A stretch of DNA of 64,000 nt from Streptomyces sp. CA-210063 (lineage in GTDB: Bacteria > Actinomycetota > Actinomycetes > Streptomycetales > Streptomycetaceae). The stretch covers positions 1,612,001 through 1,676,000 of the forward strand of contig NZ_CP102512.1 in NCBI RefSeq assembly GCF_024612015.1, read 5' to 3'. The position numbers and the translations under genes were made by a program. The notes below the pieces were generated by a model, which saw only the letters and a program-made list of their open reading frames with translations, did not search any database and was not told the DNA's origin. This document shows positions 17,917 through 51,510 of the stretch, piece by piece (position 1 is the first letter of the stretch; every line of letters starts with the position of its first letter).

Positions 17917-18742
17917 AGGTCTCCTCCACTGCGGCCGAGACGATCGTCGTGACCGCCTTGAAGGTACGGATGCCCTCGTACATGGTCGGGCTGGTGTACG
18001 CGACCTTGCGTTCACCGATACGTGCCACACCGGGCACGACGGTCGCGGCCATCGCCAGGTGCTCGGCGTCGAACTCCAGCGCCACGGTGAACGGCCCGCC
18101 CCTGACGGGTTCGTGACGCACCGCGAGCGACGCGGCCTCCTTCGCCGCCGCGCGGATGTCGGCGGCCGTTCTCGCCGGGGTGCGGCACACCGCCGCGTAC
18201 CGCGACACATGGTCCTTGACCGCCACTTTGAGCGCCCCGGGCGCGTACCCCAGGGCGTCCTCGCAAGCCACGTCGTCGCCTGTCACCAGGACCACCGGTA
18301 CCCCGTACTCGGCCACGACATGCGAATTCAGGAGCCCTTCGCTCGCCCGCTCGTCGTTGACCCACACGCCGGTGACGGAGTTCGCGAGATACGTGTGGGC
18401 CAGGACCCCTTCCATCCCCGCGCCCGCGTGGTAGCCGACGAACGCGATCCCGTCCACGTCCCCGTGCTGCACGCCCTCCACCATGGACAGCGCCTTGTGC
18501 CGCCCGGTCAGCATCTGCGCGCGCTCGTCCAACCGCTCCAGCAGCAGATTGCGCATCGTCCAGTGCGCCTCGTTGATCAGCACCTCGTCGGCTCCGCCGT
18601 CGAAGAAGCCGAGCACGGCGGCGTTGACATCGGAGGTGAACATCGCACGACACCGCTCCCACTGCGGCGTCCCCGGCAGCACGTCGGCCGGCCAGGTGAC
18701 ACCGGTGGCGCCCTCCATGTCGGCGCTGATGAGGATCTTCAT
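17909..18742 (-). CDS. dppA: M55 family D-aminopeptidase (DppA-like)
   Basis: A 277 aa protein of family M55, like B. subtilis DppA, a zinc D-aminopeptidase that releases N-terminal D-Ala. The ligand motifs DMEG near residue 8, NEAHW near 60, GYHAG near 104 and NDERASEGLLNS near 128 are present. It heads a peptidase operon (M55, M20, S9, S66) suited to D-residue-containing cell-wall peptides. There is no ribosome site; TAACGT ends eight bases before ATG 18742, so a leaderless transcript is likely. The promoter and first five codons are repeated at 38894-38950, 20 kb away. Confidence 0.92.
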   Translation of the reverse strand: MKILISADMEGATGVTWPADVLPGTPQWERCRAMFTSDVNAAVLGFFDGGADEVLINEAHWTMRNLLLERLDERAQMLTGRHKALSMVEGVQHGDVDGIAFVGYHAGAGMEGVLAHTYLANSVTGVWVNDERASEGLLNSHVVAEYGVPVVLVTGDDVACEDALGYAPGALKVAVKDHVSRYAAVCRTPARTAADIRAAAKEAASLAVRHEPVRGGPFTVALEFDAEHLAMAATVVPGVARIGERKVAYTSPTMYEGIRTFKAVTTIVSAAVEETYG

Positions 18743-18784
18743 GCTGCTTCACGTTACGCGTCGACGCGGGAACTTCTTACGAGG
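18728..18784. repeat. Direct repeat copy 1 (dppA promoter and start)
   Basis: This 57 bp matches 38894-38950 at 51 positions without gaps, including a perfect 29 bp core that spans the first five dppA codons and the TAACGT -10-like element. Similarity stops abruptly on both sides. It marks the left edge of the 20 kb block that carries the Pfa-like genes. Confidence 0.9.
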
Positions 18785-18845
18785 CAGAGAGGGAGTCCAC
18801 TCCTGAGACTCGGCACCTCGGCGCAGGGCGGTGCCGGACTCTGGC

Positions 18846-19760
18846 TCATCCGGCGAGACGGTCCAAGGACTCGTAGGTCGCGAGGTACTCGGCCGTGTCG
18901 ACGGAGCGTCCCATGGTGAAATTCGCGATCAGATCCGCGAGTGCCTCGGGCCGCTCCCCGCTCAGCAGATGGCCGGCGTCCCTGATGACCGCGAAATCGG
19001 CACGGGGAAGTTCAACCGCCAACTCGCGGCTGAGCCCTGGAGGAGCGAACCGGTCGTGTTCACCGGCGACGATCAGAAAGCGCACATCAGCGGGAATAGC
19101 CTCACGGGGGCGCAACGGATGACGCAGAACCCGCAGCGTGTTCTGCACATACCTGTCCATCCCGTCCGGGGAGAGTGAGTTGAAATTCCGGTAGGCGAGC
19201 AAGGTGATCGCCTTCCGCTGAGCGGACTCGCCCGCAGTGGGCGGAAAGAAGAGATCGACCGTGGTCCTTACGAACTCGTCCGGATCTCCTCCTACCAAAG
19301 CATCCAACGCGTAGTGGAGCGAGTCCCGTGTCTGAGGAGCGAGTTCAGGGCCGACGGAGGCCAGGACCGCGCCGACCGTACGCGCGGGATGGCGGCAGAT
19401 GAAACGGCCGGCCGTGACGGCTCCGTAGCAGGCTCCGAAGAGATTGGCCCTCGGGATTCCGGCGTCGTCGAGCACATGGGCCAGCGCATCGGCGAGGAAG
19501 TCGAAACCGTGGTAGGCGGGCAGCACATCGGAATCCCCTGCCCCCGGCAGATCCACGGTGATGACAGATGCGTGTGCGGAGAGATGCTGCTCCACACCGG
19601 TCCAGGCGAACTGATCCTGCAGTACCCCGCCCAGGAGAACAATGGGCTCGGTGGTCGGACGATCCTGATGGATGATTCGGTAGGAATAGTCGTACCCGGC
19701 GAAGCGCACAGCATTTCGCTCCTCCTCCAACAGCCGGGCACCGACACCGGGTTCGTTCAT
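18846..19760 (-). CDS. Alpha/beta hydrolase with Cys at the nucleophile position
   Basis: A 304 aa alpha/beta hydrolase-fold protein. The oxyanion region (IVLLGGVLQDQFAW), the acid in GEHDRFAPPG near residue 250 and His in AGHLLSGE near 273 are normal. The nucleophile elbow, however, reads GACYG with Cys-111 instead of Ser. Cys nucleophiles occur in dienelactone hydrolases and engineered thioesterases. Its ATG overlaps the stop of the pfaC-like gene by 4 bp, so it is translated with the synthase and is a good candidate for chain release or acyl transfer. No signal peptide is visible. Confidence 0.85.
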   Translation of the reverse strand: MNEPGVGARLLEEERNAVRFAGYDYSYRIIHQDRPTTEPIVLLGGVLQDQFAWTGVEQHLSAHASVITVDLPGAGDSDVLPAYHGFDFLADALAHVLDDAGIPRANLFGACYGAVTAGRFICRHPARTVGAVLASVGPELAPQTRDSLHYALDALVGGDPDEFVRTTVDLFFPPTAGESAQRKAITLLAYRNFNSLSPDGMDRYVQNTLRVLRHPLRPREAIPADVRFLIVAGEHDRFAPPGLSRELAVELPRADFAVIRDAGHLLSGERPEALADLIANFTMGRSVDTAEYLATYESLDRLAG

Positions 19761-22700
19761 TTCGGGTACACCGCCCTCATGCCGAGGTCGCGCACATGGT
19801 AGATGCGGCGGCCGTCGATCCACAGCCATGCCTCGGCAACAGCCGTGGTGCTGCCCGGATCGCGCGTGAAGCTCAGCACATCCATCTCGACGGTGAGAAG
19901 ACGGTCGGTGGGAACGACCTGCCCGCGGTATTTCCAGGTGGTTTTCCAGCCGGTCAGGATGGGCTCGAAACGCGTTCCCTCGGGAAGGGTTCCCGCGCAG
20001 CGTTCCTCGATGTGGAACCGTAGGAGTTGGCACATGGCTTCGATACCGAGGGATCCCGGCTGGACCGGGTCCTGGAAGAAGTGCGCGCTGAAGTACCAGG
20101 CTCCGGGATCGATGTGCTTCTCCGCACGCAGCCGTCCCTGTCCATGTGGGCCGCCGTCGGGCCAGTAGCCTGTGACGCGGTCGAGCATGCGCAGCATGGG
20201 GCCGATTCCTGAGGGACGGTCGGCGCCGAGGGCGACAGTGACGTCGGAAGGTGCGGCCAGGCGGGCTCGTTCGGCCTCGGTGGCGGGCAGGCCGAGTTGT
20301 CTGGCCAAGGCTTCCGCCGGGAAGAAACCGAAGGACGTCTGGAGGTCCGCGAGGGGTTCTCCGTCGGCCAGGCACCGGACGGTGAAGGCCGTCAGGATCA
20401 TGTCGCCGTACCGGGAGACACCGGTCAGTTCCGCGTGGGTGTGCAGTGTGCGCGTGCCGGGATCCACCGCGCGGTGCACGATGGCGGTGCCGTCGAGATT
20501 GCGGAACGCCAGCGGCGGCCCGTCCGCGAGCGCGTTGCCGATGCCGTACATGGCGAGCCATCCGCAGGGTTGCAGGGCGACCTCCAGCAGCACCGCGAAG
20601 GGCATGGTGGCCGTGCCGTTCTGATCGAAGTACCAGGTCTGTTCCGGTACGTCGTACTCGGCTCGTACGCCGCTGCCTTCCCTCAGTGTGTGCTGGGGGC
20701 CCTCGATCGAGACGACCCGGCTCACGAAGTGATAGGGCGGGCCGGGGAGACGCGGCAGGGGCCGGCCGTCGTCCAGGGCCGCGACAGCGGGACCGAATGC
20801 CTCGGACGGTCTGCCCCAGGCACAGGCGAGGAGAGCCGGGTAGCCGTACGAGACTCCGCCCGACTCGGCCACCGGCCTGGTTTCCCGGTGCCCGACGAGG
20901 CCGCCCAGCAGACCCGGTGGCACGTGTTCGCCGGTCGTCCGTACGACGGGTGGGCCCAGTTCTCGCCAGTGAGTGAGGGGCCAGTCGGGCACCAGGCGTA
21001 CGCCGACGTCGGCGGCGTGGAACGCCTTCACACCGTCGACGGTGACGAGCATGTCGGCCCGGAGTTCGGGGTGCGGTCCGGCGTGCGTCTCCCGGACGAA
21101 CAGTTCGTAGGTCACGAGCCGGCTCGCGGGGGTGGCCTGCCCTCGGCAGCGCATCCGGGTCGTGCGGCCGGGCACCGGTTCGAAACGCCAGCCGTCCCGG
21201 TCGACGGTGTGGCCCAGGGCGGCGAGATAGAAGGCCATGGCCTGCACGCCTGCCTGGAACATCAAGGTGCCGGGCATGCAGGGATCGTTGTGGAAGTGGC
21301 CGTCAAAGAACCATTCGTCGCCCTCGATCGGTGTTTCGGCCCGGAGATAGCCGCGTTTCCAGGGACCTCCCGCGGGGTCGAGTGCGGTGACTTCGTGGAG
21401 CAGGAGCAGGCGCCCGCTGTCGATGCCCGGTGACCGCACGTGGGCGTGTGTGCGTTCCCAGCCCGGCCCGAAGCAGTCGGCGGGGCGTCCCTCGGCGAAC
21501 GCCCGCACCTGCTCATGGCCAAAGCGGACGGCCACCTGGTCGACAGCCGGCGGGTCGTGGCGGGCCGGCTCCGGCGGGGTGTGGTCGGCCGGGTCCCACC
21601 GCACCCCGTCGCTGTCCGCCAGCTCTGCGTCCGTGAAGTATCCGGCCTGTCCCTCGCGTACGCGCAGCCGGAGTTCGTCGCCCACGTAGCAGTCGTACTG
21701 GAAGAAGAAGATCCGGATGCCGTTGTGCTCGGTGTTGCCGGTGACGTGGATCGCGTAGCGCAGAGTGTCGCCGGGGCGCGGCGCGACACCGTGGAAGTCG
21801 GCCTCACAGCCCAGCAGGCGGTACACGCGGTCGCCCTGTCCTGCCAGATCGGCGCCGAGGTAGCTCATGAGCAGCATGTCGGCCTGCCCCGCCTCGATCA
21901 TGAGGCCCGCGGGCATCCGTCCTGCGGGATCGACGTACCAGCTGTCGTTCCGCACCGTGGTCTCGGTCCAGATCATTCCGGTGCCCAGGGAGGCCGGCTC
22001 GGCGGCGATCCCCAGGACCCGGTCGATGAGCAACAGGGGAGGCGCGGGCAGCCGGGTCTGGCGGACTCGGCCGTCCTGCGGCGCGAAGAGCGGCCCGAAC
22101 AGGTCGGAGATCCGTCCGGTCGCATGCCGTTCGAGCTGCGCGCGGTCGAACGACGGGCCCGGGTACGGGGCGGGGCCGGGTCGGCGAGGCGACGCCACGG
22201 TGTGGTGCGAAGAAGCAGTTCCGGCCGCCCTGTCAGCTCCCGCCGCTCTCCCCGCTCCAGCCGCCGCGATGAGCGCGGCCAGGTCGCGTGTGCGTGACGC
22301 CAGGAATTCCTCGTGGGCGCGGGTGGCGTGAGTGAGGTGGTCGCGGTGGGCGACGACGACGAGTTCACGTTGACGCGCCAATGACCGGGCGGCCTCGGAC
22401 GGAGCGACGCTCCGCGCCGGGGAAGGGAAGGCACCGGCGGCACCGGAGACGCGCGGCCCGCCGCCAGGTGAGGCGGGGAGGACGACCTGAGCCCGGTACG
22501 GGATCAGGCGGGTGGCGCGTGGGGAGTCGGCGAGAGGGGGAGCCACGGCGGTGAGGCGTTCGAACAGGGACTGTGCCGCGCAGGGGATGCCCGCGGCGGC
22601 GAACTCGGCGACGGCCTGGCACAGTTGGTCGACGCCGTGCGTACCGGTTTCGTCCAACGCGACGGCGAGGTGGTCACGATCGCCGAGGATCCGCCGGATC

Positions 22701-25700
22701 CAACCCGTGCACGAGCCACGCGGACCATGCTCGACGAAGACACGCACACCGTCGGCGTAAGCCCGCTCGATCACCCCGGCGAAGTCGATGGTGCCCATGG
22801 CCTGCGCGGTGACGGCGTCGGCGGCGAGCCGCGCCGTGGGAACGTACGAGTCCCTGGCCGCGCAACCGTAGAAACGGACGCCTGGCACCGCGACGGTGGC
22901 TCGGTGATGAAGCCGCCACCACTGCTCGCGCACTTCCTCCAACTCGGGCGCGTGGGCGGCCATGTCATAGTCGACCCGGACGGTGTGGGCCCCGCGCAGG
23001 GGTCCTTCCAGAACGGCGGCGCAGGCGTCGGCCTCGCCGCCGATGACACACACACCGGGCGCGTTCACCGCCATCAGATGCACGGCACGTAGCCCGGTCA
23101 GCGCGGCGCGCACCTCGTCGAGGGGCGCGTTGACCACGTGCGTGGCCCAGTGCCGGCCCGTGATGCCGAGGCGCTGCCAGGCCGTGCGGGCGGCGCGATG
23201 CTCGCCGGTGACATCGCGGGTGAACAACTCGTCGGCGCATGCGTCGGCGTACAGGGCCGCCGCGTCCGGCCAGGCCCCGAGCGCCACGAGAGCAGTCGAC
23301 TCGCCGGACGAGTAGCCGATGGCGGCCTGCGGGACGAGTCCGAGCGTGTCACGGGTGAGGCGGGTGTGCAGGGCGGCCAGGGCCGTGACCCCGAAGATCT
23401 GGCCGAGCACGCCGCTGGGCGCGGTCGCGGGCAGACCGTGGACACGCCGTACCTCCGCATGCTCCGCCGGGAAGGCGAGGGCCAGTTCGCGTCCTGCCCC
23501 GGGGTAGTGGGCCGAGCCGCCCGTGTAGACGAAAGCCGTCTCCCCCTCGATCGGCGCCGCCCGGTAGGCGGCACCGGGCGGACGGCCGCCCGCGCCGGTC
23601 AGCCATCGGCGTGCCGCTTCGCTGCGCTGCGCCACCGACGCGGCCGGGCCCGCAAGGACGAGGCGCGCGGGGCCGCGGCTGTCCTCGCGGCCCTCGGCGA
23701 GCGCGGCCACCACCTCCTCGCGGTCCGCGCCGGAATACACCGACAGGCGGCGCGGCCCCTCCGACAGCCAGGGAGTGTGGTCGCCCGCCGTCAGCCGTAC
23801 CCGGGCCGGGGGCGCCCCCAGCGTGGAGACGACGACGGTGGCTGTCCTCAGCGCGGGGTCCGGCTCGGCGGGGCCGTCCGCACGGGGCCGGACGCGGTGT
23901 CCGAGGGCGACGACGGCGGCAGCGGCACTCAGCAGGCCCTGAGCGGCATGCGCCGTACCGAACAGGGCGGCGGGGTCGAAGCCCGGCGGAAGTGCCGTGG
24001 GTAGGGCGACTGCCTCGGTGGCATCCCCACCGCGCACCAGCAGATCGTCGGATTCCGGTGGGCCGCCGTCGGCGTGCTCGTCCCCGACGACGGCGAGGAC
24101 GGGATCGCCGTCGCGGCGGGCGTCAGTGACACGTTTGAGGACCATGACCACGGCCGCGTCCCCTGGTGGGGTGTCACGGCCCACCGCCCGCAACGCCTCC
24201 TGGTGCACGGGATCGTGGGAGAGGTCAACCGCCCCGACGACCGCGGCGTCCATCTCGCCCGACCGCAGTGCGCGCACCGCGAGGTGCAGGGCGACGACTC
24301 CGGACGCCTCCTCCGCACAGACCGCGTAGCCGGGGCCCCGGAGGTCCAGGACGGCGTTGATGCGGCCTGCGACGAGGTTCGGCAGGGTGCCAAGAACGCG
24401 GGTGGCGGTGAGCTCAGGGGTGAACGCGTCTCGGTACCGGCCGAGTTCGTCGGCGTCGGTGTGCACGCCGGCCGCCGCCAGCCAGGAGGGGACGCGCCAG
24501 CGGCCTCCGTACCGGGTGAGTGAGGCCGCCGCGCCCGCTCCGACGAGGACCGCCGTGCGCTCGCGCGGCAGCCGCACCCCTGCCGTGGCCTCGCGCGCCG
24601 CCTCCAGGACGAGCAGGTGGTGGGGCTGTACGTCGTCCAGATCACGGGGTGGGAAGGGCAGGCCGGGGAGCGCGACCTCGATCCGTGCCCGGGTGTCCCC
24701 GACCACGTCGCCCGCGAGCAGGGTGCGGCGGAAGTCGTCCAGGCCACGGCCGCCGGCCACACGTGCGCCGAGAGCCACCACGGCCACCCGACGGTCGGTC
24801 GGCTCCGGCACGGGCCGCGGCGGCGGTGGGGCCACGAGGGCTCGTTCCGTGTCCGCGGCTTCCAGGACGAGATGGGCATTGGTGCCGCCGAACCCGAAGG
24901 CGCTCAGACCGGCACGACGTGGCCCGGCCCACGGCAGCGGCTCGGTCAGGGGACGCAGCGGCGTGCCGCGCACGGTGTCGATCGGCTCGGTCAGGCCAGG
25001 CGTGGCGGGGCGGGTGCCGCAGCGCAGGGCACCGAGAAGTTTGAGCATGCCGGCCGCTCCGGCGGCGGTCAGCGGATGCCCGAGGTTCGCCTTCACCGAG
25101 CCGAAGGGCAGACCGGGGTGGTCCGCGAACACACGGGCGGAGCTGCGCACTTCGGTCGCGTCTCCGACAGGGGTGCCGGTGCCATGGCATTCCAGCAGCG
25201 AGATCGAGGCCGGATCGAGGCCGGCGGCGGCGTACGCCGCACGCATGGCCTGCTCCTGGCCGTCCGCCGAGGGCGACGCGAAGCCGTTCCCACGGCCGTC
25301 GTTGGACAGGCCCACCCCGCGTACGACGCCGAGGACCGGCCGCCCCTCGGCGACCGCGTCGCGCAGCCGCATCAAGGCGGTGAAGCCCGCTCCCTCGGCC
25401 GGCACCAGGCCGTCCGCCCGGCGGTCGAACGGCCGGCACCGACCGCTGCGGCTCATCGCCCCCAGGGCACAGAAACCGATCTGGATGAACAGGTTGTCCG
25501 TGCAGTTGACCGCTCCCGCGAGCATGAGGTCGGCGGAGCCGTCATGCAGCCGGTCGCAGGCGAGTTTGACCGCATGGATGTACGAGGCGCATGCGGCGTC
25601 CAGGGCGAAGGCGCCCGCGCCGAGGCCCAGGGCACGTGCCGCGAGGTGCGCGGGCAGGCCCGTGTGGAAGGCACCGCGACCGGCCGGCCGGGGACCGAGC

Positions 25701-26176: not shown

Positions 26177-26232
26177 GCTGATCCCGACTGATCCACTCTC
26201 TCGCCCGCGCCGGGGTGTGGCCCGGCCCGGTG

Positions 26233-29200: not shown

Positions 29201-32200
29201 AGCACCGCCGCGAACGACGTCTCGGCCACGCGCAGGAACGCGAGATGGCTCTCCGTGAACGCACGCTGATACGCCGCGTGCGCCTCCGCGGTCTGGGCCT
29301 GCGCCTGCTCGATGACCCGCAGCCAGTCCGGCGGCGGAGACAAGACCGAGGACAGGGCATCGGAGTCCGGGGACATCGGCGCCGGCACGTACGGCGCGAC
29401 CCGTGGCTGCGTGGGGAACACGGGGACGGGCACCGTGGCAGGCGCCGGGGCCATGTGCTCCGGAGCCGGTTGGTCCGGAGCACATGGCCCCGGCGCCACG
29501 CCGGGCTCCGGATTGGCCGGGGGCAGCTGGGGCGCGCCTCCGGGAGGAGGATAGGGGCGCCCGGAGTTGACCCCACTGATGTTCACGGTCATCCGCGTCT
29601 CCTCGTTCCTCCCGGCCGCGGTCTCGGGCCGGGGCGGTGCGTACTCGGTCCACAGGGCCTCGTGGTCAAGGTCGATCCCCCGGACGGCGAGCCGGGCCAT
29701 GGCCTCCTGAAGACTCGTCACGCCGTGTGCGCCCTTGCGGTCCAGCGGCACGGCTAGGTGCTCACGACCGGCGAGGATGTCGTCCACCAGTCCCGACAGG
29801 ACCGCGCCGGGGCCTACTTCCACAAAGGTCCGGACGCCGTCGGCGTACATCGACTCGATCACCGCGGTGAAATCGACGGGTGTGACGATGTGTTCGGCGA
29901 TGTGCCCGCGGATCTCGTCCGGTGCCGTGGGCCAGGCGCCGCCTTCGGCGTTCCCGTGGACGGTGAGCGTCGGCTCGCCGATGTCGACGCTGTCGGCCAG
30001 TACGGCCATGCGCTGGACGGCGTCCGCGACGAGCGGGGTGTGGAACGCGGTGCTCGTCTCCAGCGGAACGGCCGCGGTGCCCGCGTCGGCCAGCCGCGTC
30101 CGCAGGGCTTCGACGGCCTCGACGGTTCCTCCGACGACGGTCTGCCGGGGAGAGTTGCGATTGGCCGTCCACAGCTCGGGGTGGCCCACGCCGTTGATCG
30201 CGTCGGTCACCTCCTCGGGCCCGGCGGCGACGGCGAGCATGGCGCCCCCCGCGCTGGCCGCGTCCCTCATGGCCTCGCCGCGCACCCGCGCCACGTGCAG
30301 GAGCGTGGGGGCATCGAGGACTCCCGCCGCGTGCAGGGCGACGAGTTCGCCGAAGCTGTGGCCCGCCACACGGTCGGGGCGCAGCCCGAGGGCACGGAGC
30401 ACCTCCAGCGACGCCACGCTGTGGACGGCGATCGCGGGCTGTGCCCACTCGGTGGCGCGCAGGAGGGACCGTTGGGCGTCCCGCTCGGTGTCGGTGACGG
30501 CCGGAGCGGGGAACACCACCCGGTGCAGTGGCAGGCCTTCCCACTCCCGCGCCCCCAGCTCGTCCCAGGCGGAGCGGGCGACAGCCGCCTCCATGGCCAG
30601 GTCGGCCCCCATGCCGACGTACTGGCTGCCCTGGCCGGGGAAGAGAAAGGCGACTTGGCCGGGAGCCGGTGCGCCGAGGGCGAGATGGACGCCCTCAGGC
30701 GCGGAGTGCGCGGGCGCGCACGACGCCGACGCCGACGCCGATGCCGATGCCGACCTGAGCGTTTCGGCCGACCGCGCGAGCTTGGCCGCCAGGTCCGCCT
30801 CGTCGGTCGCGACCACGGCGAGCCGGGCGGGGGCGCTCGCCCGGTACGCGCGCTGACTGATCCGAGCCGTCTCGGCCAAGGGCCGCCCCTGGCCGTATTC
30901 GGCACAGAGCGCCGCCAGTTCGCGTGGGGAGTCCGCCGCCAGCAGGACGAGTTCGGTCGGCGCGGTGCGGCAGCGCCACGCGGGAGCGCCGCCTGCTCCG
31001 GTCTCCGACGCCGCCACGTATTCCTCCACCGTCACATGGAAGTTGCTGCCGCCGAATCCGAAACTGGAGACCGCCGCTCGTCGGGGATGGTCGTTGCCGC
31101 GCACCCATGGCCTGGTGCGGGTGTTGAGGTAGAAGCAGCTGTCGGGGAGGTCGAGGTCGGGGTTGGGCCGCTCGGCCTTGATGGTGGGAGGGAGCACCTT
31201 GTGGTGCAGCGCGAGGACGGCCTTGAGCAGCCCCACGGCTCCGGCGGTGCACTTGGTGTGGCCCAGTTGCGACTTGACCGAGCCCAGGGCGCACCATTGC
31301 CGGTCGGGGCGCCCTGTTTCGGTGAAGACCGTGTTGAGGGCGGTGAATTCCGCGAGGTCGCCGACGCGGGTTCCGGTGCCGTGCGCCTCGACGAGTTCCA
31401 CGGTGTCGGGGCCGTAGCGGGACGCGTCGTAGGTCCGGCGCAGCGCCTTGGCCTGTCCCTGGGCCAACGGGGTGTAGACAGCGGTGCCGTGGCCGTCCGA
31501 GGAGGACCCCAGCCCGCGGATCACGGCGTAGACGCGGTTGCCGTCCCGTTCGGCGTCGGCCAGCCGTTTCAGGGCGAACATCGCGAGTCCTTCGCCGAGC
31601 ATCGTTCCGTCGGCGTTCTCGGCGAAGGGGCGGCAGTCCCCCGTCGGGGACAGGGCCGGGGTCTTGCTGAAGAACAGGTACATGCCGGGATCGGTGAGGG
31701 TGTCGACTCCGCCGGTGAGCACCATGTCCGCCCGGCCGAGCGTCAGTTCGCCGAGTGCCACGGAGAGCGCGGCCAGCGAACTGGCGCAGGCCGCGTCGAC
31801 GGTGTGGTTCGAGCCCCGGAAGTCGAACTTGTTGGCGATCCGGCCCGCGACCACGTTGGCCAGGGCGCCGGGGAAGGTGTCCTCCTGCGCCGGCACATAG
31901 TGCTCGGCGATCCGGTCGCACAGTTCCGTCACCCGGCTCTCGGGCAGACCGGCCTCGCGCATGGCCTTGCGCCACACGGGGCGTTGGAGCCTGGAGACGG
32001 AGTAGCTCACCTGTTCAAGGGTCGTCGTGCCCAGAACGACGCTGACCCGGTCGCGATCGGTCCCGGCGAGGTGCTCCGGTCCGAGGTCGTCGAGGACCGA
32101 CCGGGCCACGAGGAGGGCCAGCAGCTGGCTGGTGTCGGTGGCCGGGATGGCCTTCGGCGGCATCCCGAACTCCAGCGGGTCGAAGGCGACCTGGGGCAGG

Positions 32201-32445
32201 AAGGCGCCCCGTCGGGCATAGGTCTTGTCCACGGCGGACGGATCGGGATCGTAGTGGTCCTCCACCAGCCAGTGCGTCGGAGGAATGTCGCTCATGTGGT
32301 CGCGCCCCTCCAGCACACCGCGCCAGAAGTCCGTGACGCCGGTGGCGCCGGGCAGGAGGGCTCCGACCCCGACCACGGCGACGGGGACATGGCCCCCGGT
32401 GGCGTCCGTGGGCGCGGGGCGCGGCGGCTTCGGATGCGTGGGCAT
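26233..32445 (-). CDS. PfaA-like synthase: KS-AT-ACP-KR-DH-like
   Basis: A 2070 aa protein. Ketosynthase (~20-470) has Cys-220 in DAACASS, EAHGTGT and QLGHTK. Acyltransferase (~600-900) has Ser-697 in GHSFGE and His in AFHTP. After a Pro-rich linker and a helical segment (~1090-1150) comes a single acyl carrier domain with the phosphopantetheine Ser-1183 in GIDSIKRVEIL. A PfaA-type ketoreductase (~1500-1760) has VTGGGRG and Tyr-1696 in QADYAMANE. The C-terminus (~1780-2070) resembles a PKS dehydratase/product-template hot-dog (THGHLADHV). Canonical PfaA carries 4-9 tandem ACPs; here only one is seen. The pfaC-like gene follows 56 bp downstream. Confidence 0.9.
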   Translation of the reverse strand: MPTHPKPPRPAPTDATGGHVPVAVVGVGALLPGATGVTDFWRGVLEGRDHMSDIPPTHWLVEDHYDPDPSAVDKTYARRGAFLPQVAFDPLEFGMPPKAIPATDTSQLLALLVARSVLDDLGPEHLAGTDRDRVSVVLGTTTLEQVSYSVSRLQRPVWRKAMREAGLPESRVTELCDRIAEHYVPAQEDTFPGALANVVAGRIANKFDFRGSNHTVDAACASSLAALSVALGELTLGRADMVLTGGVDTLTDPGMYLFFSKTPALSPTGDCRPFAENADGTMLGEGLAMFALKRLADAERDGNRVYAVIRGLGSSSDGHGTAVYTPLAQGQAKALRRTYDASRYGPDTVELVEAHGTGTRVGDLAEFTALNTVFTETGRPDRQWCALGSVKSQLGHTKCTAGAVGLLKAVLALHHKVLPPTIKAERPNPDLDLPDSCFYLNTRTRPWVRGNDHPRRAAVSSFGFGGSNFHVTVEEYVAASETGAGGAPAWRCRTAPTELVLLAADSPRELAALCAEYGQGRPLAETARISQRAYRASAPARLAVVATDEADLAAKLARSAETLRSASASASASASCAPAHSAPEGVHLALGAPAPGQVAFLFPGQGSQYVGMGADLAMEAAVARSAWDELGAREWEGLPLHRVVFPAPAVTDTERDAQRSLLRATEWAQPAIAVHSVASLEVLRALGLRPDRVAGHSFGELVALHAAGVLDAPTLLHVARVRGEAMRDAASAGGAMLAVAAGPEEVTDAINGVGHPELWTANRNSPRQTVVGGTVEAVEALRTRLADAGTAAVPLETSTAFHTPLVADAVQRMAVLADSVDIGEPTLTVHGNAEGGAWPTAPDEIRGHIAEHIVTPVDFTAVIESMYADGVRTFVEVGPGAVLSGLVDDILAGREHLAVPLDRKGAHGVTSLQEAMARLAVRGIDLDHEALWTEYAPPRPETAAGRNEETRMTVNISGVNSGRPYPPPGGAPQLPPANPEPGVAPGPCAPDQPAPEHMAPAPATVPVPVFPTQPRVAPYVPAPMSPDSDALSSVLSPPPDWLRVIEQAQAQTAEAHAAYQRAFTESHLAFLRVAETSFAAVLGACGIDAGASTGSRELAVPAVPLPTGSPSTMAEPPELPPENDPRLSASPAVVTMPPPAVERERHEVDVEELLRSVVADRTGFPAEMLKMSMDMAAELGIDSIKRVEILGALMERVGNLPSDEISELSTARTLGDVAEVLRRHTSPPAGPSAHVVPGAGGDLSGRLAGGTGGVAVVDEDGLSGLSGLPAPSETVAPSELSGPPEPSRPRCHIVEAVPEDPVGLAPAGLYGSRLVVTDDGRGTARLVADGLRAGGVDAVAVDEVPADARAVVLLGGLAQAATWENATALQREALRVCGGLAPVLEAEGGLLVVVQDSGGDFGLSGRHGERAWAGGLAALARTAAREWPRATVRAIDCEWGARTAREVAEVIVREILNGGTALDVGLRADGTRLVPHLTPRSSVRSALDPEQTRELGPESLLVVTGGGRGVTAAALRELARAHRPGLVLVGRTRLDDEPAGLRPMTDEAALVRALAAEHLARRPAEHADATPAALAARARHILAVREIRATLEALRQAGSDARYVTADVRDAGELSRALDRVRSEWGRPVTGIVHGAGVLADQRIAEKTEEQFDLVFGTKVAGLRALLDATADDPLETIVLFSSVAARFGNTGQADYAMANEVMDQVACVEQHRRRGCLVRSIAWGPWDGGMVDAGLAAHFARSGVGLIHPEAGAQVFTTELTGPLTPTPRVVVTADGPGGPMGFGGPTSHGRWTGPGAARAAELLIRPDTHGHLADHVPGEAPVVPMAVVLDWFARAVRSWQGDTAEVVLRDLRVLRGIECDVRRRDHRSVLTVTSQPSSFPGGPVEVQLRADGDGAAVLHYRATLAALDATDTGPWPTGHGLPSYPGADVPGADDVYDVYDSPALFHGPGFRALRTVHGLGPDGAAAEVVGAEELGWADDAWHVDPGALDGALQLALLWAERALGRACLPMSVGTARLPRTGALTVPTTCAVRAGRVRGDTARCDVALLAADGAPQVQLLQVELVARPA

Positions 32446-32485
32446 GGGGCGCGGAACTCCTCGGGGACGACGCCGGCCGTATGGG

Positions 32486-34123
32486 TCAGCTGAGGTGTCG
32501 GGGGGTGAAGGTGAAGGCGGCGGCGGGGACGGCGACTCCGTAGGAGCGCAGCTGCTGGGCCCGGGTCACCACCGCCGCGCCCTCCAGGAGATTGAGGGCG
32601 ACCTGGACGACGGTGCACTGAGCGCGCTCGGCTAGGAAGCTGCCCCGCACCCAGTTGTTGAAGGCTCCCATCACCGGCCCGCACCAGATCTGGTAGTCCG
32701 CGCGCCGGTCGGTTTCCCCGTTGATCGCCCAGGCACTGGAGCGGCCGAGATACCAGCGGAACACCAGCGCCATACGGTGCTTGGGATCGGTGTCGGCCCG
32801 GATGAGCTGTCCGGGGTCGCGCTCGGCCCAGAACTTCTCGGTCCAGGCCCACACCCGCGTCATGGGAGCACGGAAGACCTCTTGCTCGAGCCAAGCGGAG
32901 GTGCCGGCGTCGAGCGCCTCCAGCGACGGAACCGCACGATAGATCTCGTACAGGCGGCTCGCGCGTGAGGCGAACAGTGTGCCGCGGCGCAGCACTTGCA
33001 GTCGTACGCCCATCTCGAACATGTCGGCGGCCGGAGCCATCGTCACGTCGGCGATGTCGGCGGTGGCCAGCATGTTCTTGGCGTCGTCCGAGGTGCCCGC
33101 CTCGACGGTGATCTGGTTGACCGTACCGGTGACGACGTACGCCGCGCCCGCTCCGAAGGCGGCGGCGAGCGCCTGCGGCGTGCCCAGCCCGCCCGCGGCA
33201 CCGATCCTGATGGGGCGCGCGTAGCCGTGACGTCGGGTGAGGTGGTCGCGCAGGGCCAGGATGACGGGCAGCAGCGCGCCCAGTGGGCGGTTGTCCGTGT
33301 GGCCACCGCTGTCGGACTCCACGGTGACGTCATCGGCCATCGGTACCTGGCCGGCCAACGCCGCCTCTTCGGCGGTGAGTTGCCTTCGGTCGACCAGAAC
33401 ACGCAGCAGGTGCGGCGGAGCCGGAGACATGAAGCGCTCGGCCACTTCCTCCCGGGACACCTTGGCGAACACCCGCCGGGCGCGCAGGATCCGGCCGTCG
33501 GGGGCACGGCGCAGCCCGGCCGCACGGCACCGCACCACCGCCGGCGTCAGATCCATGTACGCCGACGCCGAGACGCATGGCACGCCACGCCGCACGAGGG
33601 ACTCGGCGACCCTCTCCTCCAGCGACGGCTCCGCCGGGGAGTGGATGAGGTTGGCCCCCCAGTTCGGCTGGGCGCCGAGGGCTCGCGCCACCTCGTCCAG
33701 GCGGCGTTCGACCTCCTGATGGGCCAGTCCGCCCGTCCCGAGGAAGCCGAGCATCCGTGCTCGGCCCAGCGCGATCACCATCCGGGGTGTGGCGATACCC
33801 ATGGCCATTTCCCCGGCCACGTAAGGGAAGCGAACACCGTGCTCCTCCCCGAAAGAACGCTCGCCCAGCCATTCCGGATAAATGGGTGGAACAATTCCCT
33901 CGACATGCAGAGCCGGGTCCGCGGCGAGTCCGGTGAAAGCACCACCACCGAGCGCGATGGTCCGCCCTGTCGCCAGGCCGCGACTGAGCACATAAGCCGT
34001 TTCACGAATCCGTGCCACATAATCGGCGACGGTGTCCGGCCCGGCCGCCGGGGGAAGGTGTCCAGGCAACCAGGTCAGCGGACGACGCACCAGGTCAGGG
34101 GTCCGCGATGGGGACAGTGGCAC
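32486..34123 (-). CDS. PfaD-like enoyl reductase (FMN, 2-nitropropane dioxygenase fold)
   Basis: A protein of about 545 aa of the PfaD/omega-3 PUFA synthase enoyl reductase family, with a TIM-barrel FMN fold (GEMAMGIATPRMVIALGRA, NWGANLIHSP, IRIGAAGGLGTPQALAAAFG, AYVVTGTVNQITVEAGTSD) and the family C-terminal domain (WYLGRSSAWAINGE, GPVMGAFNNWVRGS). In PUFA synthases it reduces enoyl-ACP intermediates in trans. GTG 34123 is chosen because GAGGGG lies eight bases upstream; TTG 34126 is possible. It is the first gene of the synthase operon and ends 40 bp before the pfaA-like start. Confidence 0.9.
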   Translation of the reverse strand: MPLSPSRTPDLVRRPLTWLPGHLPPAAGPDTVADYVARIRETAYVLSRGLATGRTIALGGGAFTGLAADPALHVEGIVPPIYPEWLGERSFGEEHGVRFPYVAGEMAMGIATPRMVIALGRARMLGFLGTGGLAHQEVERRLDEVARALGAQPNWGANLIHSPAEPSLEERVAESLVRRGVPCVSASAYMDLTPAVVRCRAAGLRRAPDGRILRARRVFAKVSREEVAERFMSPAPPHLLRVLVDRRQLTAEEAALAGQVPMADDVTVESDSGGHTDNRPLGALLPVILALRDHLTRRHGYARPIRIGAAGGLGTPQALAAAFGAGAAYVVTGTVNQITVEAGTSDDAKNMLATADIADVTMAPAADMFEMGVRLQVLRRGTLFASRASRLYEIYRAVPSLEALDAGTSAWLEQEVFRAPMTRVWAWTEKFWAERDPGQLIRADTDPKHRMALVFRWYLGRSSAWAINGETDRRADYQIWCGPVMGAFNNWVRGSFLAERAQCTVVQVALNLLEGAAVVTRAQQLRSYGVAVPAAAFTFTPRHLS

Positions 34124-34344
34124 CAAAGGATCCCCTCATGAACCGGGAGATTGAGGCAGGAGTCCGACTCCATTCCCGTAAATGCTTTCACACTCACCCT
34201 CACAACGAAAGGCTACATCCGGGCGCACAATTAACCATTAATTCAACTATTCAAATAATCATATTCCCCGAATACGGCAACCCTATACGCACCCGATCGG
34301 TTCGGGCGTACTCTGCGGGGCGGCATGAAAGGGAGGGGGATGCA
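34124..34344. promoter_or_regulatory. Divergent AT-rich promoter region between pfaD-like and exporter genes
   Basis: About 220 bp separate the divergent genes. Positions ~34180-34290 are strikingly AT-rich for this chromosome. They contain a perfect inverted repeat, AATTAA-N3-TTAATT at 34229-34243, followed by further AT tracts. Such islands often hold promoters and regulator sites. No -35/-10 pair could be fixed with confidence. No regulator gene is present in the neighbourhood. Confidence 0.55.
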
Positions 34345-35922
34345 GTGAAGGCCCGAGGATCGGTGACCGGCGGCATGACACCGGCGCGCCGGAGGGTCGC
34401 CATGGGCGCCGTCTGCCTGGGGCTCTACATGCTCGGGATGGACCTGACCGTACTCAACACACTCCTGCCCGACCTGCACCGAGATCTGGATCTGACGGCG
34501 GCCCAGGCCCAGTGGGTGGTGGACGGCTACGCCCTCGCCCTGGGCGGACTTGTACTGTCCACCGGGGGACTCACCGAACGTGTCGGCCGACGGCGCGCCT
34601 ACGTCGGCGGCCTGCTGGTGTGCGCAGCGGCTTCCGCTCTGGGAGCCCTGGCGACCACCTCCCACGGCGTCATCGCCGCACGGGTGGGCATGGGCGTCGG
34701 GGCGGCGCTGTTCATGCCGGCCACGCTCTCCATCGTCAGTGGCCTCTTCCCGGAGCCCGCACTGCGCCGTCAGGCGATCGCCGTGTGGGCGGTGGTGGCC
34801 GGCCTCGGCATGCTCACCGGCCCGGTGGTCGCAGGGCTCCTGGTCTCCCACTTCTCCTGGCATTCCGGTTTCTGGATCAACGTGCCGCTCGCACTGATCA
34901 GCGCGGCCCTGGCCGCGCTCCTCGTGCCGACGACCGGTCCCGCGCGCCGCGGGAGGACCGATGTGCCGGGGGCCGTCCTGTCCGCCGCCGGTCTGACCAC
35001 ACTGGTCTGGGCCCTCATCGAGGCACCGGGACGCGGCTGGACCAGCCTCCCGGTCACCGTCGCCTTCGCCCTCGCCACGGCTCTGCTGGCCACGTTCGCC
35101 GTACGGCAGTGCCGTACCGCTGACCCCATGCTGCCGCCCGCCCTGCTACGCGACCGCCGGGTGAGCGGCGGCGCCGCAGCCGTGGCGCTGGTGTGCTTCG
35201 CCCTGGCGGGCTCGCTGTTCGTCGTCACCCTCTACCTGCAAAGCATCCTCCGATACGACCCGTGGGAGGCCGGGCTCCGTCTGCTGCCCCAGGGCGGCGC
35301 CCTGGTCATCGGGTCGGCGTCGGCCCTGCCGCTGCTCCGCCGGTTCCACGAGAAAGTACCTGTCGTCCTGGGCCTGCTGCTGATCGCCGGAGCCCTGGCG
35401 GTCTGGTCGTCCACCACTTCCGACTCCGGATACCCACGACTGCTCGTGGTCCAGCTCGTCGCCGGCACCGGTGCCGGGCTGGTGGCCACGGCCGGCACCG
35501 AGGCGGTCATGCACGCGGTTTCCCCCTGGCAGGCCGCCCTGGGCTCGGCTGTCAACGACGCCTCTCGCCAAGTCGGTTCGGTCCTGGGCATCGCCGTCCA
35601 GGGCTCGATCCTCGCCACCGTCTATCCCCGGCGCCTGAGGACCCACCTCGACCAACTACCGCAGCCCGTCCCCACGCTCCGCCGGCCCACGCCTTACGAC
35701 CTCCCGGGCACCCTGGACCTCGAAGCCCTCCCCCCAGGAACCCGAGCAGCGGCAGCCACCGCCGTCCGCCACGCCTTCATCGAGGCCATGAACGTCACCG
35801 CTCTGTCCACCACCTGCGTCATCCTCGCCACCACCATCACGGTGGCCTACGCGCTCCCGGGCCCCCTACGCAGACCCGCGCCGGCCTTCCTCCCGACCGC
35901 CGAACAGGAAGGCGTCCGGTAG
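34345..35922 (+). CDS. DHA2-family 14-TM MFS exporter
   Basis: A 525 aa major facilitator of the DHA2 (EmrB/QacA) drug:proton antiporter type. Signatures are MDLTVLNTLLPDL in TM1, WVVDGYALALGGLVL in TM2, the GRRRAYVGG loop, and WRSGFWINVP-like HSGFWINVPLALI in TM5-6, with about 14 hydrophobic helices. GTG 34345 follows GGGAGGGGG by five bases. It is divergently transcribed from the Pfa-like operon and probably exports its product or confers self-resistance; the substrate is unknown. Confidence 0.9.
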   Translation: MKARGSVTGGMTPARRRVAMGAVCLGLYMLGMDLTVLNTLLPDLHRDLDLTAAQAQWVVDGYALALGGLVLSTGGLTERVGRRRAYVGGLLVCAAASALGALATTSHGVIAARVGMGVGAALFMPATLSIVSGLFPEPALRRQAIAVWAVVAGLGMLTGPVVAGLLVSHFSWHSGFWINVPLALISAALAALLVPTTGPARRGRTDVPGAVLSAAGLTTLVWALIEAPGRGWTSLPVTVAFALATALLATFAVRQCRTADPMLPPALLRDRRVSGGAAAVALVCFALAGSLFVVTLYLQSILRYDPWEAGLRLLPQGGALVIGSASALPLLRRFHEKVPVVLGLLLIAGALAVWSSTTSDSGYPRLLVVQLVAGTGAGLVATAGTEAVMHAVSPWQAALGSAVNDASRQVGSVLGIAVQGSILATVYPRRLRTHLDQLPQPVPTLRRPTPYDLPGTLDLEALPPGTRAAAATAVRHAFIEAMNVTALSTTCVILATTITVAYALPGPLRRPAPAFLPTAEQEGVR

Positions 35923-36157
35923 TGCTTCGTCGGCGCTGCCGGCCGACCAGGTCGGCGCAGGGCAGCGGCCATGCCATCCACCCCTGCGCCGATCACCTCA
36001 AGCAATGGCGCGGCCCGGCACTTGATCGTCCCGGTCACCGGCCGTGTTGCCGATCCTTCGTCCCCGGGCAGGCTTCCTGGCCGGGGAGGAGCCCACGGCA
36101 GAGCAGCGGGCCTGCCGTGGGCTGGTGGTCCTGGACGGCGGCGGACCGGTGCCAGGA

Positions 36158-36751
36158 CTATTCCGGTACAGGTGCCTCGCCGGATACCGCAACGCCTGCG
36201 CGGTGGAAGTCGTCCAGGGTCGACGCTGTGGTGTCCGGGGCGACGCCGACCGAGTAGTCCAGGAGCACGCGGGCACAGAAGCCCGCCTTGACGGCGTCCA
36301 GCGCGGTCGCGCGGACGCAGTGGTCGGTGGCGATGCCCACCACATCAACGTCCTCCACCTCCCGCGAGCGCAGCCAGTCCGCCAGAGGTGTGCCGTGGTC
36401 GTCGGCGCCTTCGAAGCCGCTCTTGGAAGCGCTGTGAGCGCCCTTGAAGAAAACGGCATCCACCTTGCCACCAGTGGCCGTGGGAGCGAAGTTCGGGTGG
36501 AACTCACCCCCCTCGTTCCCGGCCACACAGTGGACGGGGAAGCTGTCCCGGAAGTCCGGGTTCTCGGAGAAGTGACTGCCCGGATCGATGTGATGATCCC
36601 GGGTGGCCACCACGTACTGGTAGTCACGCCCCGCACTCTTCTCGACCAGTTCCGCGATCGCCGAGGCGATCCGCGCGCCTCCAGCGACGGGAACACTGCC
36701 TCCTTCGCAGAAGTCGTTCTGCACATCCACGACGATCAAACCTCGGCTCAT
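36158..36751 (-). CDS. pncA: Nicotinamidase/isochorismatase-family hydrolase
   Basis: A 197 aa cysteine hydrolase. The catalytic Asp in VDVQNDFCEGG, Lys in VFFKGAHSASKSGFEG and Cys in IATDHCVRATALDA form the family triad. The DHHxDPGSHF metal-site motif is typical of nicotinamidases (PncA), which convert nicotinamide to nicotinate for NAD salvage. ATG 36751 follows AAGGAG by six bases. It converges on the exporter gene and sits inside the candidate island. The pncA assignment is by motif; other amidases of the family are possible. Confidence 0.88.
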   Translation of the reverse strand: MSRGLIVVDVQNDFCEGGSVPVAGGARIASAIAELVEKSAGRDYQYVVATRDHHIDPGSHFSENPDFRDSFPVHCVAGNEGGEFHPNFAPTATGGKVDAVFFKGAHSASKSGFEGADDHGTPLADWLRSREVEDVDVVGIATDHCVRATALDAVKAGFCARVLLDYSVGVAPDTTASTLDDFHRAGVAVSGEAPVPE

Positions 36752-36956
36752 CACGAACTCCTTCCAGAGCTGTGGAACGCAGTAAAGAACCGCTTCGGAA
36801 ACCTGAACTACAGGCCACCGACTGCCCCGTGGGCTGAACGGGCCTGCCGTCACCCGCCCGGACGAACAGAATCAACCCCGTTGCGTGACAGACCACCGCG
36901 ATGTCCCACGCCCCGCGCTTCGGCCTTGTCCCCGCCTTCCGGGGAGGAGAGAAAGT

Positions 36957-36984
36957 GCGGGCCGCGGGACTTGCCGCGGCCCGC
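36957..36984 (-). terminator. Strong hairpin downstream of the lectin gene
   Basis: An 11 bp perfect GC-rich stem (36957-36967 with 36974-36984) with a 6-base loop; three further pairs follow across a one-base bulge. It begins 14 bp after the lectin stop, so it probably terminates lectin transcription. There is no U-tract. Confidence 0.7.
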
Positions 36985-36997
36985 CTTCCCGCCCTGC

Positions 36998-38122
36998 TCA
37001 GGGGAGGGACCACCAGTTGACCCACAGTTCGGAGTCATCGGTGATGAGGAATGCGTAGGGGCGCTGAGCGGCGTTGTTGTTGTCCTGCACGGTGAGTACC
37101 TCGCCGGGGCGTTCGAGGACGCGTCCGGTCGCGGTGCCGTGATCGGCCCACTTCCACGTGCTGCCGTCCCACCAGTTCGCGTACAGCTTGGAGTTGTCGC
37201 CGATGACGTAGGCGTACGGGCGCTGGGCCGCGGTCGGTGCGTCCCGGACCGTGATGGCGCCGACGGAGTCGAGGATGAGCCTCCCGCTGGGCGTCCCCTG
37301 GGCGCTCCAGTGCCAGGTGCCGCCGTCCCACCAGTTCAGGTACAGCTTCGAGTCGTAGCCCTGGACGAAGACGTACGGCCGCTGGGCCGCGTTCGGTGTG
37401 TCCTGGACCGTGATGACGCCCACGCCGTTCTTGACCGGCTGGCCTGCCGGGGTCCCGTGGTCGGCCCAGTGCCACGTGTTGCCGTCCCACCAGCTGCACC
37501 AGAGGTGGGAGTCGGCGGTGATGACGTAGGCGTAGGGGCGGTCGAAGGAGCTGGGGGTGTCTCGGACGGTGGTGACGCCCAGGGGGCGGGAGATGGTGTG
37601 GCTGGGCGGGGTGCCGTGGTCGGCCCAGTGCCAGGTGCTGCCGTCCCACCAACTGCACCACAGCCGGAAGTCATCGGTGAGGACGAAGGCGTAGGGGCGC
37701 TCGGGCGAGGTCGGGCTGTCCTGGACGACGACGACACCGACTCCTTCGCGCACCCACCGCCCGCTCGGTGCGCCGTGGTCGGCCCAGTGCCACTGGCTGC
37801 CGTCCCACCAGTTCGCGTACAGCTTCGAGTCGTCACCGATGACGAAGGTGTACGGCCGCTGGGCCGCACCCGGGGTGTCCCGGACCGTCACGGAGCCGAC
37901 CTTCTCGAGGATGGTGCGCCCCGCTGGTACGCCGTGGTCGCTCCACTGCCACTTGCCGCCGTCCCACCAGTTGGCGTGCAACCGCGAGTCGGAGCCGCGT
38001 ACGAAGACGTACGGCCGCTGGCCGACCTGCGGGTTGTCCTTCACGGTCACCGCGCCGGCGGTGGCCCGGACGCCGATCGTCGGTGTGGGTTTGTTCTGGT
38101 CGTTCCACTGCCATGAAGCCAT
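36998..38122 (-). CDS. Seven-bladed beta-propeller lectin-like protein of 53-aa repeats
   Basis: A 374 aa protein made almost wholly of a 53-residue repeat. Each unit opens RPYxFV, then DSxLYxNWWDG, WxWxDHGxPxGR and xVTVxDxP. Six complete units plus a C-terminal half unit (ELWVNWWSLP) are present; the N-terminus (ASWQWNDQNKP) supplies the missing strand, as in the closure of a seven-bladed propeller. The Trp-rich pattern resembles the PLL/tectonin-type bacterial and fungal lectins, so carbohydrate binding is likely. There is no signal peptide or membrane segment. ATG 38122 follows GGAGAGGG by six bases. Confidence 0.8.
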   Translation of the reverse strand: MASWQWNDQNKPTPTIGVRATAGAVTVKDNPQVGQRPYVFVRGSDSRLHANWWDGGKWQWSDHGVPAGRTILEKVGSVTVRDTPGAAQRPYTFVIGDDSKLYANWWDGSQWHWADHGAPSGRWVREGVGVVVVQDSPTSPERPYAFVLTDDFRLWCSWWDGSTWHWADHGTPPSHTISRPLGVTTVRDTPSSFDRPYAYVITADSHLWCSWWDGNTWHWADHGTPAGQPVKNGVGVITVQDTPNAAQRPYVFVQGYDSKLYLNWWDGGTWHWSAQGTPSGRLILDSVGAITVRDAPTAAQRPYAYVIGDNSKLYANWWDGSTWKWADHGTATGRVLERPGEVLTVQDNNNAAQRPYAFLITDDSELWVNWWSLP

Positions 38123-38893
38123 CGTGTGCCCTCTCCAGCCCTCAAGCCCGTCGCGGGGCAGGGGGCATGCTGGTGAGATGTGTTCCAGGGAATCGGGCGC
38201 CGCAAGAGGCAGACGCCAGGACATCAGGACACGGGAACGGGTCCGGCCGGAGTCCCGCTGGGTTCCGCGTGAAAACCTTGACACCGCCCCCTGCTGCCCG
38301 TCACCGGCGCATCGGGCAGGTCACCCTGCGCCGGGAGGGTTCCGGTCACAGCCGGGCGAGATAGCACATTTCAGCCAGCGCGGCTCTGCATGACGCCGGT
38401 CCCCGCGGCCTCCGGTACCCGGATGCCGCCAACGACTGTTCCCGGGAAGCGCGCATCGGCCGTAACCCGCCACCCGAGGCTGAATGCCACACCGCACCAG
38501 CAGCGCACATCGATACCGCCACTCAACCCCCGCCCCGACACCACTCGTCTCAAAAGAGGCATTCCGTAGCTTTTAAATCGGTTTATCAGACTTTTACCCT
38601 GGCCTTTCGCCGTCACGCTGATTGGTGCAGCCCGAACTGATGGCAGAAGTCGGCGTCGACAACGCCCGCGACGCCTCGGGCCGGTGGCACGACCCCGCAC
38701 GCCGGCAGCGCTCCGGCGTCGGATCGTGCGGAGTCGGCATCTCCGGAAGCCGGTTCAAGGGGTCGATCGCCCGTACGTAGCCGCGTGCCCACGCCAGCCG
38801 GCGCTGGGCTGGGCTGCACCTGTGGATCCGCGCCCGGGACTACGAACTGCCATGTTCCAGTCTGCGCCGCAGGTCACGGCAGCAGCCCCAAGA
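38123..38893. other. Gene-poor stretch at the right end of the candidate island
   Basis: About 770 bp without a convincing gene. Short open frames on both strands lack family motifs or ribosome sites. The part near 38560-38610 is AT-rich and may hold the lectin promoter. The 38630-38880 part looks coding-like in composition but is not intact in any frame. It may contain decayed mobile-element sequence; nothing specific was recognised. Confidence 0.5.
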
Positions 38894-38950
38894 GATGAGG
38901 ATCTTCATGCTGCTTCACGTTATGCGTCGGCGAGGGAACCTCCCACGAGG
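38894..38950 (-). pseudogene. Direct repeat copy 2: headless remnant of dppA 5' end
   Basis: This segment matches 18728-18784 at 51 of 57 bases. It contains an ATG at 38908 followed by five codons identical to dppA (MKILI), then unrelated sequence, and keeps the TAACGT element eight bases upstream. It lies 31 bp after the FAD-oxidoreductase stop (ATG 72 bp after it). It is read as the original 5' end of dppA left behind when the island entered. Confidence 0.75.
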
Positions 38951-38980
38951 AGAGGGGCGGCTCTCCGTCTGCGCCGGGCG

Positions 38981-40390: not shown

Positions 40391-40446
40391 GGTTCCTCCC
40401 TTGGGCCGATCCTTCGGCGATCCTTTGGGTACCGGTGGCGGCGGGT

Positions 40447-41616: not shown

Positions 41617-41816
41617 GATCGGCTCCCTGAGGTGTCTCCAGCCTTCTCTGCCGCTCACCTTTCGCGCATCCCTGTACCAGTTCACCCCGAGATTGAATTT
41701 ATGTCCCGCCAAGGCGGGGCCGCCCGCGCAGGACCGCTCGTCGACACCGAGAGTGCCCGCGGCGCGCTGATGCGTGACTGCCGCGGCCATCACGCCGAAA
41801 GTCGAGGACGAGGGCG

Positions 41817-42542: not shown

Positions 42543-42782
42543 GCCCAACTCCCCCGGGATAGCACGTCGGCCCGCCGCTCGGCGGCCCAGAACGGTCTAC
42601 CGCGCCCGGAATGCGCAGACAAGCACCGCGCGCGTACCTTCACCTCTCATCCAAATCGCGCGCGCCCCAACGCGCCCCGCACGCCCCCTGGCCACCCAGA
42701 AACGGCGGCGAGCCACTCCGGCGGGGCCGGTGCACGACGCACAGGTACCCGGGGCCGGCGCCGAAGCCAGTCCCCCACCGCC

Positions 42783-45275: not shown

Positions 45276-45472
45276 GGCCAAGGCCCTTTCTCCCCATGGC
45301 TCGCAAGATCTGCGCCGCCCCCACTACCGTACGGCTGCGTAGCGTTGCGATGTGTGGCAATACGCGAATTGCTCCGCGGGAGCCTCCGGCGCACGCGCCG
45401 ACCCCACGGACGGCGCACGATCACTCGCGCGCCCCCGTAGAACCACCGGCCCGCCTTCTCCTGGCCGGCGGC

Positions 45473-47842: not shown

Positions 47843-47860
47843 GCGTACCGCTCCCCTCGT

Positions 47861-47910
47861 CGCACTTACCGCACAATTCCCGCGTTAAGCGGCAACTGTC
47901 GGCAAGTGCG
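47861..47910. promoter_or_regulatory. Inverted repeat upstream of the MFS fusion gene
   Basis: CGCACTT at 47861-47867 and AAGTGCG at 47904-47910 form a 7 bp inverted repeat with a 36-base centre that holds further CCGC/GCGG pairs. It begins 18 bp upstream of the ATG and could be a regulator site. No regulator gene is adjacent. Confidence 0.3.
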
Positions 47911-48021
47911 GCGAGTTACGGCATTCCGGGGAGCGTCACGAAGATCCACTCGAACCGGTGAGGGAGGCAACGCGCCCCGGATGATCGCTCGCTGGGCCGG
48001 GCATCCTTCTCGCCCTCGGTG

Positions 48022-48647: not shown

Positions 48648-48675
48648 GGGGCGCAGAGCAACCGAGGAGGCGTCC

Positions 48676-51437: not shown

Positions 51438-51447
51438 GCACGACCTG

Positions 51448-51493: not shown

Positions 51494-51498
51494 CCGCT

Positions 51499-51504: not shown

Positions 51505-51510
51505 GCCGCC

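Follow-up and report, generated by a model that had tools for sequence, protein, structure and literature searches.

A 64-kb window of genomic DNA from Streptomyces sp. CA-210063 (contig NZ_CP102512.1, positions 1,612,001 to 1,676,000) contains dppA, an intact D-aminopeptidase gene that stands behind a large block of added DNA, and within that block lies a second, orphaned copy of the dppA 5′ end. Coordinates given here are positions in this window, and letter-number labels (G253, L186 and the like) denote comparison genomes or loci. Read away from dppA, the block holds a Pfa-like synthase cluster, remnants of two genes, the orphan copy, and a pair of genes encoding a flavin adenine dinucleotide (FAD)-dependent oxidoreductase and a polysaccharide pyruvyl transferase (PyrT); a methyltransferase gene, here called X, follows (Table 1). 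A dppA homolog occurs in 293 of 295 Streptomyces genomes searched with DppA, the nearest protein being that of G253 (99% identity).

The 5′ end of dppA was recovered by a repeat search of the window as a 57-nt direct-repeat family of two copies (89% identical), in the same orientation and 20,166 bp apart. A script count gives 51 of 57 equal bases; all six mismatches fall in the last 28 positions, leaving the first 29 bp as a perfect core, where a single-base model with the base composition of the window predicts about 8e-7 exact 29-mer pairs in 64 kb. DNA and motif searches (up to three mismatches) of the whole genome, a single contig of 10.86 Mb, found these two copies only. An earlier, sequence-only reading of this DNA had taken the copies for the promoter and first five codons of dppA, with no gene behind the right one, and for the upstream region and the codons the sequence bears this out. 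Its distance of 72 bp from the FAD gene holds when measured from the FAD stop codon to the right-copy ATG; the repeat edge is 30 bp from that stop. Both copies presumably act as promoters. In the right copy, codons 1–5 are followed by unrelated sequence, and the frame they open spans, by eye, only 22 codons. A role for this frame as a leader peptide, as in species with leaders upstream of dppA, was considered and dropped, as the residues past codon 5 align, weakly, with the second of the two gene remnants. No Rfam element reached its gathering score in 18700-42600.

A motif built on the start of dppA and the sequence upstream of it (fixed spacing, up to three mismatches) is present in 131 of 392 genomes and occurs twice only in CA-210063. 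Because it is single-copy in the 130 others, it is best regarded as native to dppA and not as a recurrent att core; an assignment of the core-adjacent sequence to an element was abandoned on the same count. No island-free strain with both copies was found among the motif-searched genomes, as the sequence-only reading would have it, and short partial duplications (29–90 bp) exist in some others. A looser scan of 74 loci returned extra copies only in L206, L207 and L208, 42–90 bp from the dppA start, apart from a weak match in L160 at a distance of 18 kb, and a similarly doubled start, 29–32 bp apart, is found in L211-L213. The occurrence of such duplications in other species gives some footing to the idea that the right copy arose by local duplication, the dppA start having been copied to the 3′ end of the FAD gene independently of the arrival of any cargo. 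That origin is hardly likely, since it requires a 20-kb jump landing exactly at the edge of the gene debris, and the copy is not fresh, differing from the left one at 6 of 57 positions. A separate observation concerns the six genomes with doubled starts (L206, L207, L208, L211, L212 and L213): an additional dppA-like start, preceded by the usual motif, lies 29–90 bp upstream of the dppA start codon and by eye opens a short frame whose stop overlaps that codon, which poses the question of translational coupling.

The extent of the added DNA follows from a blastn comparison with G253, the closest genome found, which matches the window at 16872-18785 (95%) and 41814-59627 (94%). Because these two matches nearly abut, being 106 bp apart in G253 (locus L121), the added DNA runs from 18786 to about 41813, or 23.0 kb. 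In G253, dppA lies 0.16 kb from X, and the two genes are likewise neighbours, 81–141 bp apart, in G108, G139, G040 and G024. In a further relative, G247, whose DppA is 97% identical, they are separated by 4.9 kb of other DNA with three genes. The 20-kb insertion proposed in the sequence-only reading thus survives as a large block just upstream of dppA, between genes that adjoin in relatives, but not in its extent. Both the 20-kb element and the ancestral order proposed with it, in which the FAD gene was directly followed by dppA, are wrong as stated because the FAD and PyrT genes belong to the added DNA; the relatives that were expected to show this order have X beside dppA instead. An order of FAD and dppA may still have existed in a recent ancestor, though no genome shows it.

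The PyrT and FAD genes have a distribution of their own. The FAD gene is present in 39 of 295 genomes and in 7 of 80 further ones, and among the 80 FAD loci considered by name (the best 80 of 130), 77 have PyrT at most 700 bp upstream of it. Neither dppA nor X was near the FAD gene at any of the 80 within the examined stretch, which extends at least 3 kb downstream of FAD in 76. Conversely, the FAD and PyrT genes are absent from the dppA locus of all 79 genomes examined there. These two absences indicate that the pair was acquired separately. When the first 120 bp after FAD were compared by eye in 11 relatives, a shared stretch was seen only in L016 and L027. The pair looks like a small accessory operon that occurs in many places.

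Up to 20 kb around dppA was compared in these 79 genomes, an uneven sample, since it was assembled by three criteria (DppA identity for 14, the motif list for 60 and odd 5′ ends for five). In 29 of them gene X is no more than 310 bp from dppA, in 34 it is 0.37–17 kb away (three of these below 0.6 kb, too short for much cargo), and in 16 it is outside the examined stretch; one of the 16 spans only 4.5 kb, and some of them carry later genes but not X. In part of the loci X may be another gene, its match there being only 44–54% identical. With conserved flanking genes and variable cargo, the gap between dppA and X is a hotspot. The cargo proteins (100 of 297 scanned) are a mixture of transporters, regulators and oxidoreductases, as judged from the commonest 25 families of a Pfam/PHROGs census, in which a rare integrase could be missed; L126 carries genes of sugar-acid type. 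At L158 the cargo beside dppA starts with a candidate cobalamin riboswitch. The first gene upstream of dppA has a similar layout in L162, L170, L189, L198 and L201. Overall, the gap resembles an ordinary hotspot of gene acquisition, though one whose scar is unusually easy to read, more than it does any novel class of mobile element.

Cargo is common at the dppA locus of other species, and the two copies share a perfect 29-bp core, as would be seen if an element had integrated at an att site that overlaps the start of dppA and had supplied a replacement 5′ end. This route, which the sequence-only reading preferred, is now very improbable. No tyrosine integrase (PF00589) is in the window among the matches listed (12 of 15 in this genome), and those listed for 18 other genomes (cargo is present in 14, and X is out of reach in four) include none near dppA. 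The scanned open reading frames (ORFs) of the block contain no site-specific recombinase; serine recombinases were not searched genome-wide. Within the stretches examined at the 74 loci, the far ends of other cargos lack a second copy, apart from the weak L160 match. Relative to its relatives, the block of CA-210063 also extends 2.9 kb beyond the right copy, an objection that lapses if those 2.9 kb came separately. Finally, the right junction abuts debris, and the motif is single in 130 of 131 genomes.

That debris lies in the stretch that separates the right copy from the last gene of the block. The first remnant is the C-terminal end of an ATP-dependent DNA ligase gene: 22 plasmid records matched it, and nine of the 15 listed, SAP1 included, annotate this function. 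Genome contigs match it as well; plasmid-type DNA at the right edge is likely for this remnant alone. The second remnant, on the opposite strand, ends at the right copy; DNA similarity covers it from 38711 to about 38823, and protein similarity beyond is weaker. The left join of the block falls within conserved dppA sequence and the right abuts debris, which may correspond to one homologous and one non-homologous junction. Ligase debris of plasmid type at one end, together with direct repeats of the same orientation flanking 18785-38893, recalls a Campbell-type integration, in which a circular molecule with the synthase block and a short piece of the dppA 5′ end would have entered by a single crossover through general homology, giving an att-like topology. 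Such an event is unlikely, though less so than att-site entry: it requires a fragment ending precisely at codon 5 and very short homology, and no replication or transfer family was found among the scanned ORFs of the block.

The upstream region that now serves dppA differs in its affinities from the gene itself. Its 42 bp before the ATG (left copy) are 93% identical to L186 and 90% to L126, L154 and L167, whose dppA DNA is 83–93% identical to that of the window (L186 83%), compared with 76% to G253, despite 96% identity in dppA DNA. Of the 11 promoter regions that most resemble the left copy, eight belong to cargo loci and three to loci without X in the examined stretch; the 29 cargo-free loci contribute none. 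In near relatives, promoter change goes with cargo change: at dppA DNA identities of at least 0.93, mean promoter identity (raw values) is 0.91 for 29 cargo-free pairs, against 0.61 for 30 cargo pairs (loci without X in reach included) and 0.63 for nine mixed pairs. A replaced dppA promoter is thus plausible, since the present one resembles those of distant species' cargo loci more than that of G253. Import of the whole gene from a donor was considered and set aside; by sliding identity, the coding DNA over 18000-18599 is closest to G253, which confines any import to the 5′ end. Of the replacement 5′ end proposed in the sequence-only reading, the duplication and the foreign affinity of the upstream region stand, and the att-site route does not.

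Taken together, these data are best read as two successive arrivals, with the right copy an earlier dppA start left behind; as a joint account that includes the mechanism, this is moderately probable. The gap between dppA and X would have been filled in at least two steps in this lineage. In one, the PyrT-FAD operon would have been placed upstream of a dppA promoter, giving a stage ordered X-PyrT-FAD-promoter-dppA. In the other, the Pfa-like synthase block would have arrived with a dppA-type promoter on its dppA side and debris on its far side. On the dppA side, the conserved dppA 5′ end may have provided the homology for joining; the far side would have been joined by an illegitimate event within the resident 5′ end, at codon 5. 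This would have stranded the older promoter and its five codons as the orphan right copy, leaving the left copy to serve dppA, and no integrase would have taken part at any stage.

Several points weigh against this account. The intermediate X-PyrT-FAD-dppA was seen in no genome examined, and for that reason we infer, rather than observe, the order of the steps and their mechanism. An integrase may once have been present and since been lost. At dppA identities of 0.84–0.90, promoter means are alike for cargo, cargo-free and mixed pairs (0.48–0.56); cargo loci do not in general share a promoter, and the pairwise tests yield no general rule. These comparisons ignore phylogeny, and the motif served to pick 60 of the 79 loci. 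As the copies are only 57 bp long, allele affinities rest on few differences: the right copy differs from the left at six positions and from its nearest outside alleles (L186, L154 and L167) at five. In the sliding comparison, other relatives equal or exceed G253 in closeness in the bins from 17800 and 18600.

A broader possibility, put forward tentatively and with a low expectation, is that the dppA promoter and first codons form a portable joint. Cargo modules would then circulate among Streptomyces with a dppA promoter allele, each arrival swapping the promoter of dppA and displacing the former one, so that orphan promoters would record the succession of cargos. The locus offers a readable example of a Streptomyces hotspot that accumulates cargo, a biosynthetic cassette included, with no visible integrase, and it shows a widely conserved gene staying intact while the DNA in front of it is exchanged. 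An orphan 5′ end could serve as a marker for ordering arrivals at other hotspots.

Table 1. Features of the dppA locus in the 64-kb window, ordered by position
Feature	Coordinates	Strand	Basis and remarks
dppA, D-aminopeptidase (M55), intact	17909..18742	-	Pfam PF04951 Peptidase_M55, E 4.8e-90
Left repeat copy	18728..18784	-	dppA upstream (promoter) region and codons 1-5
Entire added block compared with G253 (106 bp there)	18786..41813	.	blastn
Alpha/beta hydrolase	18846..19700	-	Pfam Abhydrolase_1, residues 306-537 of longer ORF 18846-20561; start approximate
pfaC-like synthase (ketosynthase and three FabA-like stretches)	19757..26260	-	Pfam ketoacyl-synt, FabA x3; start approximate
pfaA-like synthase, KS, AT, ACP, KR and dehydratase domains	26233..32445	-	Pfam
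pfaD-like enoyl reductase	32486..34126	-	Pfam NMO and FabD_helical_ins
MFS transporter	34012..35922	+	Pfam MFS_1, E 1.3e-42; start approximate
Isochorismatase-like hydrolase	36158..36853	-	Pfam PF00857, E 1.9e-24
Repeat protein, ~53-residue Trp-rich units (159-nt DNA period)	36998..38284	-	
Debris: C-terminal end of ATP-dependent DNA ligase gene, Streptomyces-plasmid type	38611..38717	+	Similarity to ligase genes
Debris: C-terminal end of second gene, without Pfam family	38711..38893	-	Cut off at right copy
Right repeat copy	38894..38950	-	Orphan dppA upstream region and codons 1-5; no dppA behind
FAD-dependent oxidoreductase, accessory	38981..40390	-	Pfam PF12831, E 1.5e-123
Polysaccharide pyruvyl transferase (PyrT), paired with FAD	40447..41844	-	Pfam PF04230; true start probably downstream of listed GTG
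Gene X, methyltransferase	41817..42548	-	Pfam Methyltransf_25; upstream neighbour of dppA in cargo-free relatives

The synthase genes of the block have their nearest pfaD relatives in other species at 62–65% identity, and the pfaD-pfaA-pfaC trio is colinear in all six other loci fetched. In G118, G195, G204, G205, G278 and G282, for which both gene positions are available, pfaD and dppA sit on different contigs or are separated by more than 1 Mb (the dppA position in G204 being taken from the motif). As listed, the pfaC-like ORF (19757-27574) overlaps the pfaA-like ORF by 1.3 kb on the same strand (26233-27574), and its true start is probably near 26260. The repeat protein has no Pfam match at E 0.001 and no sequence match in PDB; it may be a sugar-binding propeller.

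Among the papers that a literature search on Streptomyces dppA and D-aminopeptidase listed, none is concerned by its title with this locus. Like integrase-driven genomic islands and integrative and conjugative elements with their att repeats, the locus described here has foreign DNA between direct repeats at a gene end. It differs in that no integrase was found among the matches listed, the second copy is not recurrent, and the foreign block reaches past the repeats. Its cargo resembles Pfa-like secondary lipid synthase clusters, in which ketosynthase, acyltransferase, FabA-like and enoyl-reductase genes follow one another. Hotspots of horizontal gene transfer between core genes, lacking mobile-element genes, have been attributed to homologous recombination at their flanks (PMC5635113). 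The gap between dppA and X is like these in its conserved flanking core genes, its many alternative cargos and, among the matches listed, the lack of an integrase, and unlike them in that part of a flanking gene has been duplicated and marks a seam within the cargo; flanks were compared here by sliding identity only. Homology-facilitated illegitimate recombination has been proposed for displaced effector(-immunity) modules in Vibrio (PMC5361080) and measured at low frequency in Escherichia coli conjugation (PMC3240628). Those events have the same elements as the account favoured here, namely homology that anchors one end, illegitimate joining of the other, and older sequence beside the new module. 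In contrast to the Vibrio effector-immunity arrays and the E. coli laboratory tests, the orphan at this locus is an upstream region with five codons and derives from a Streptomyces peptidase gene.

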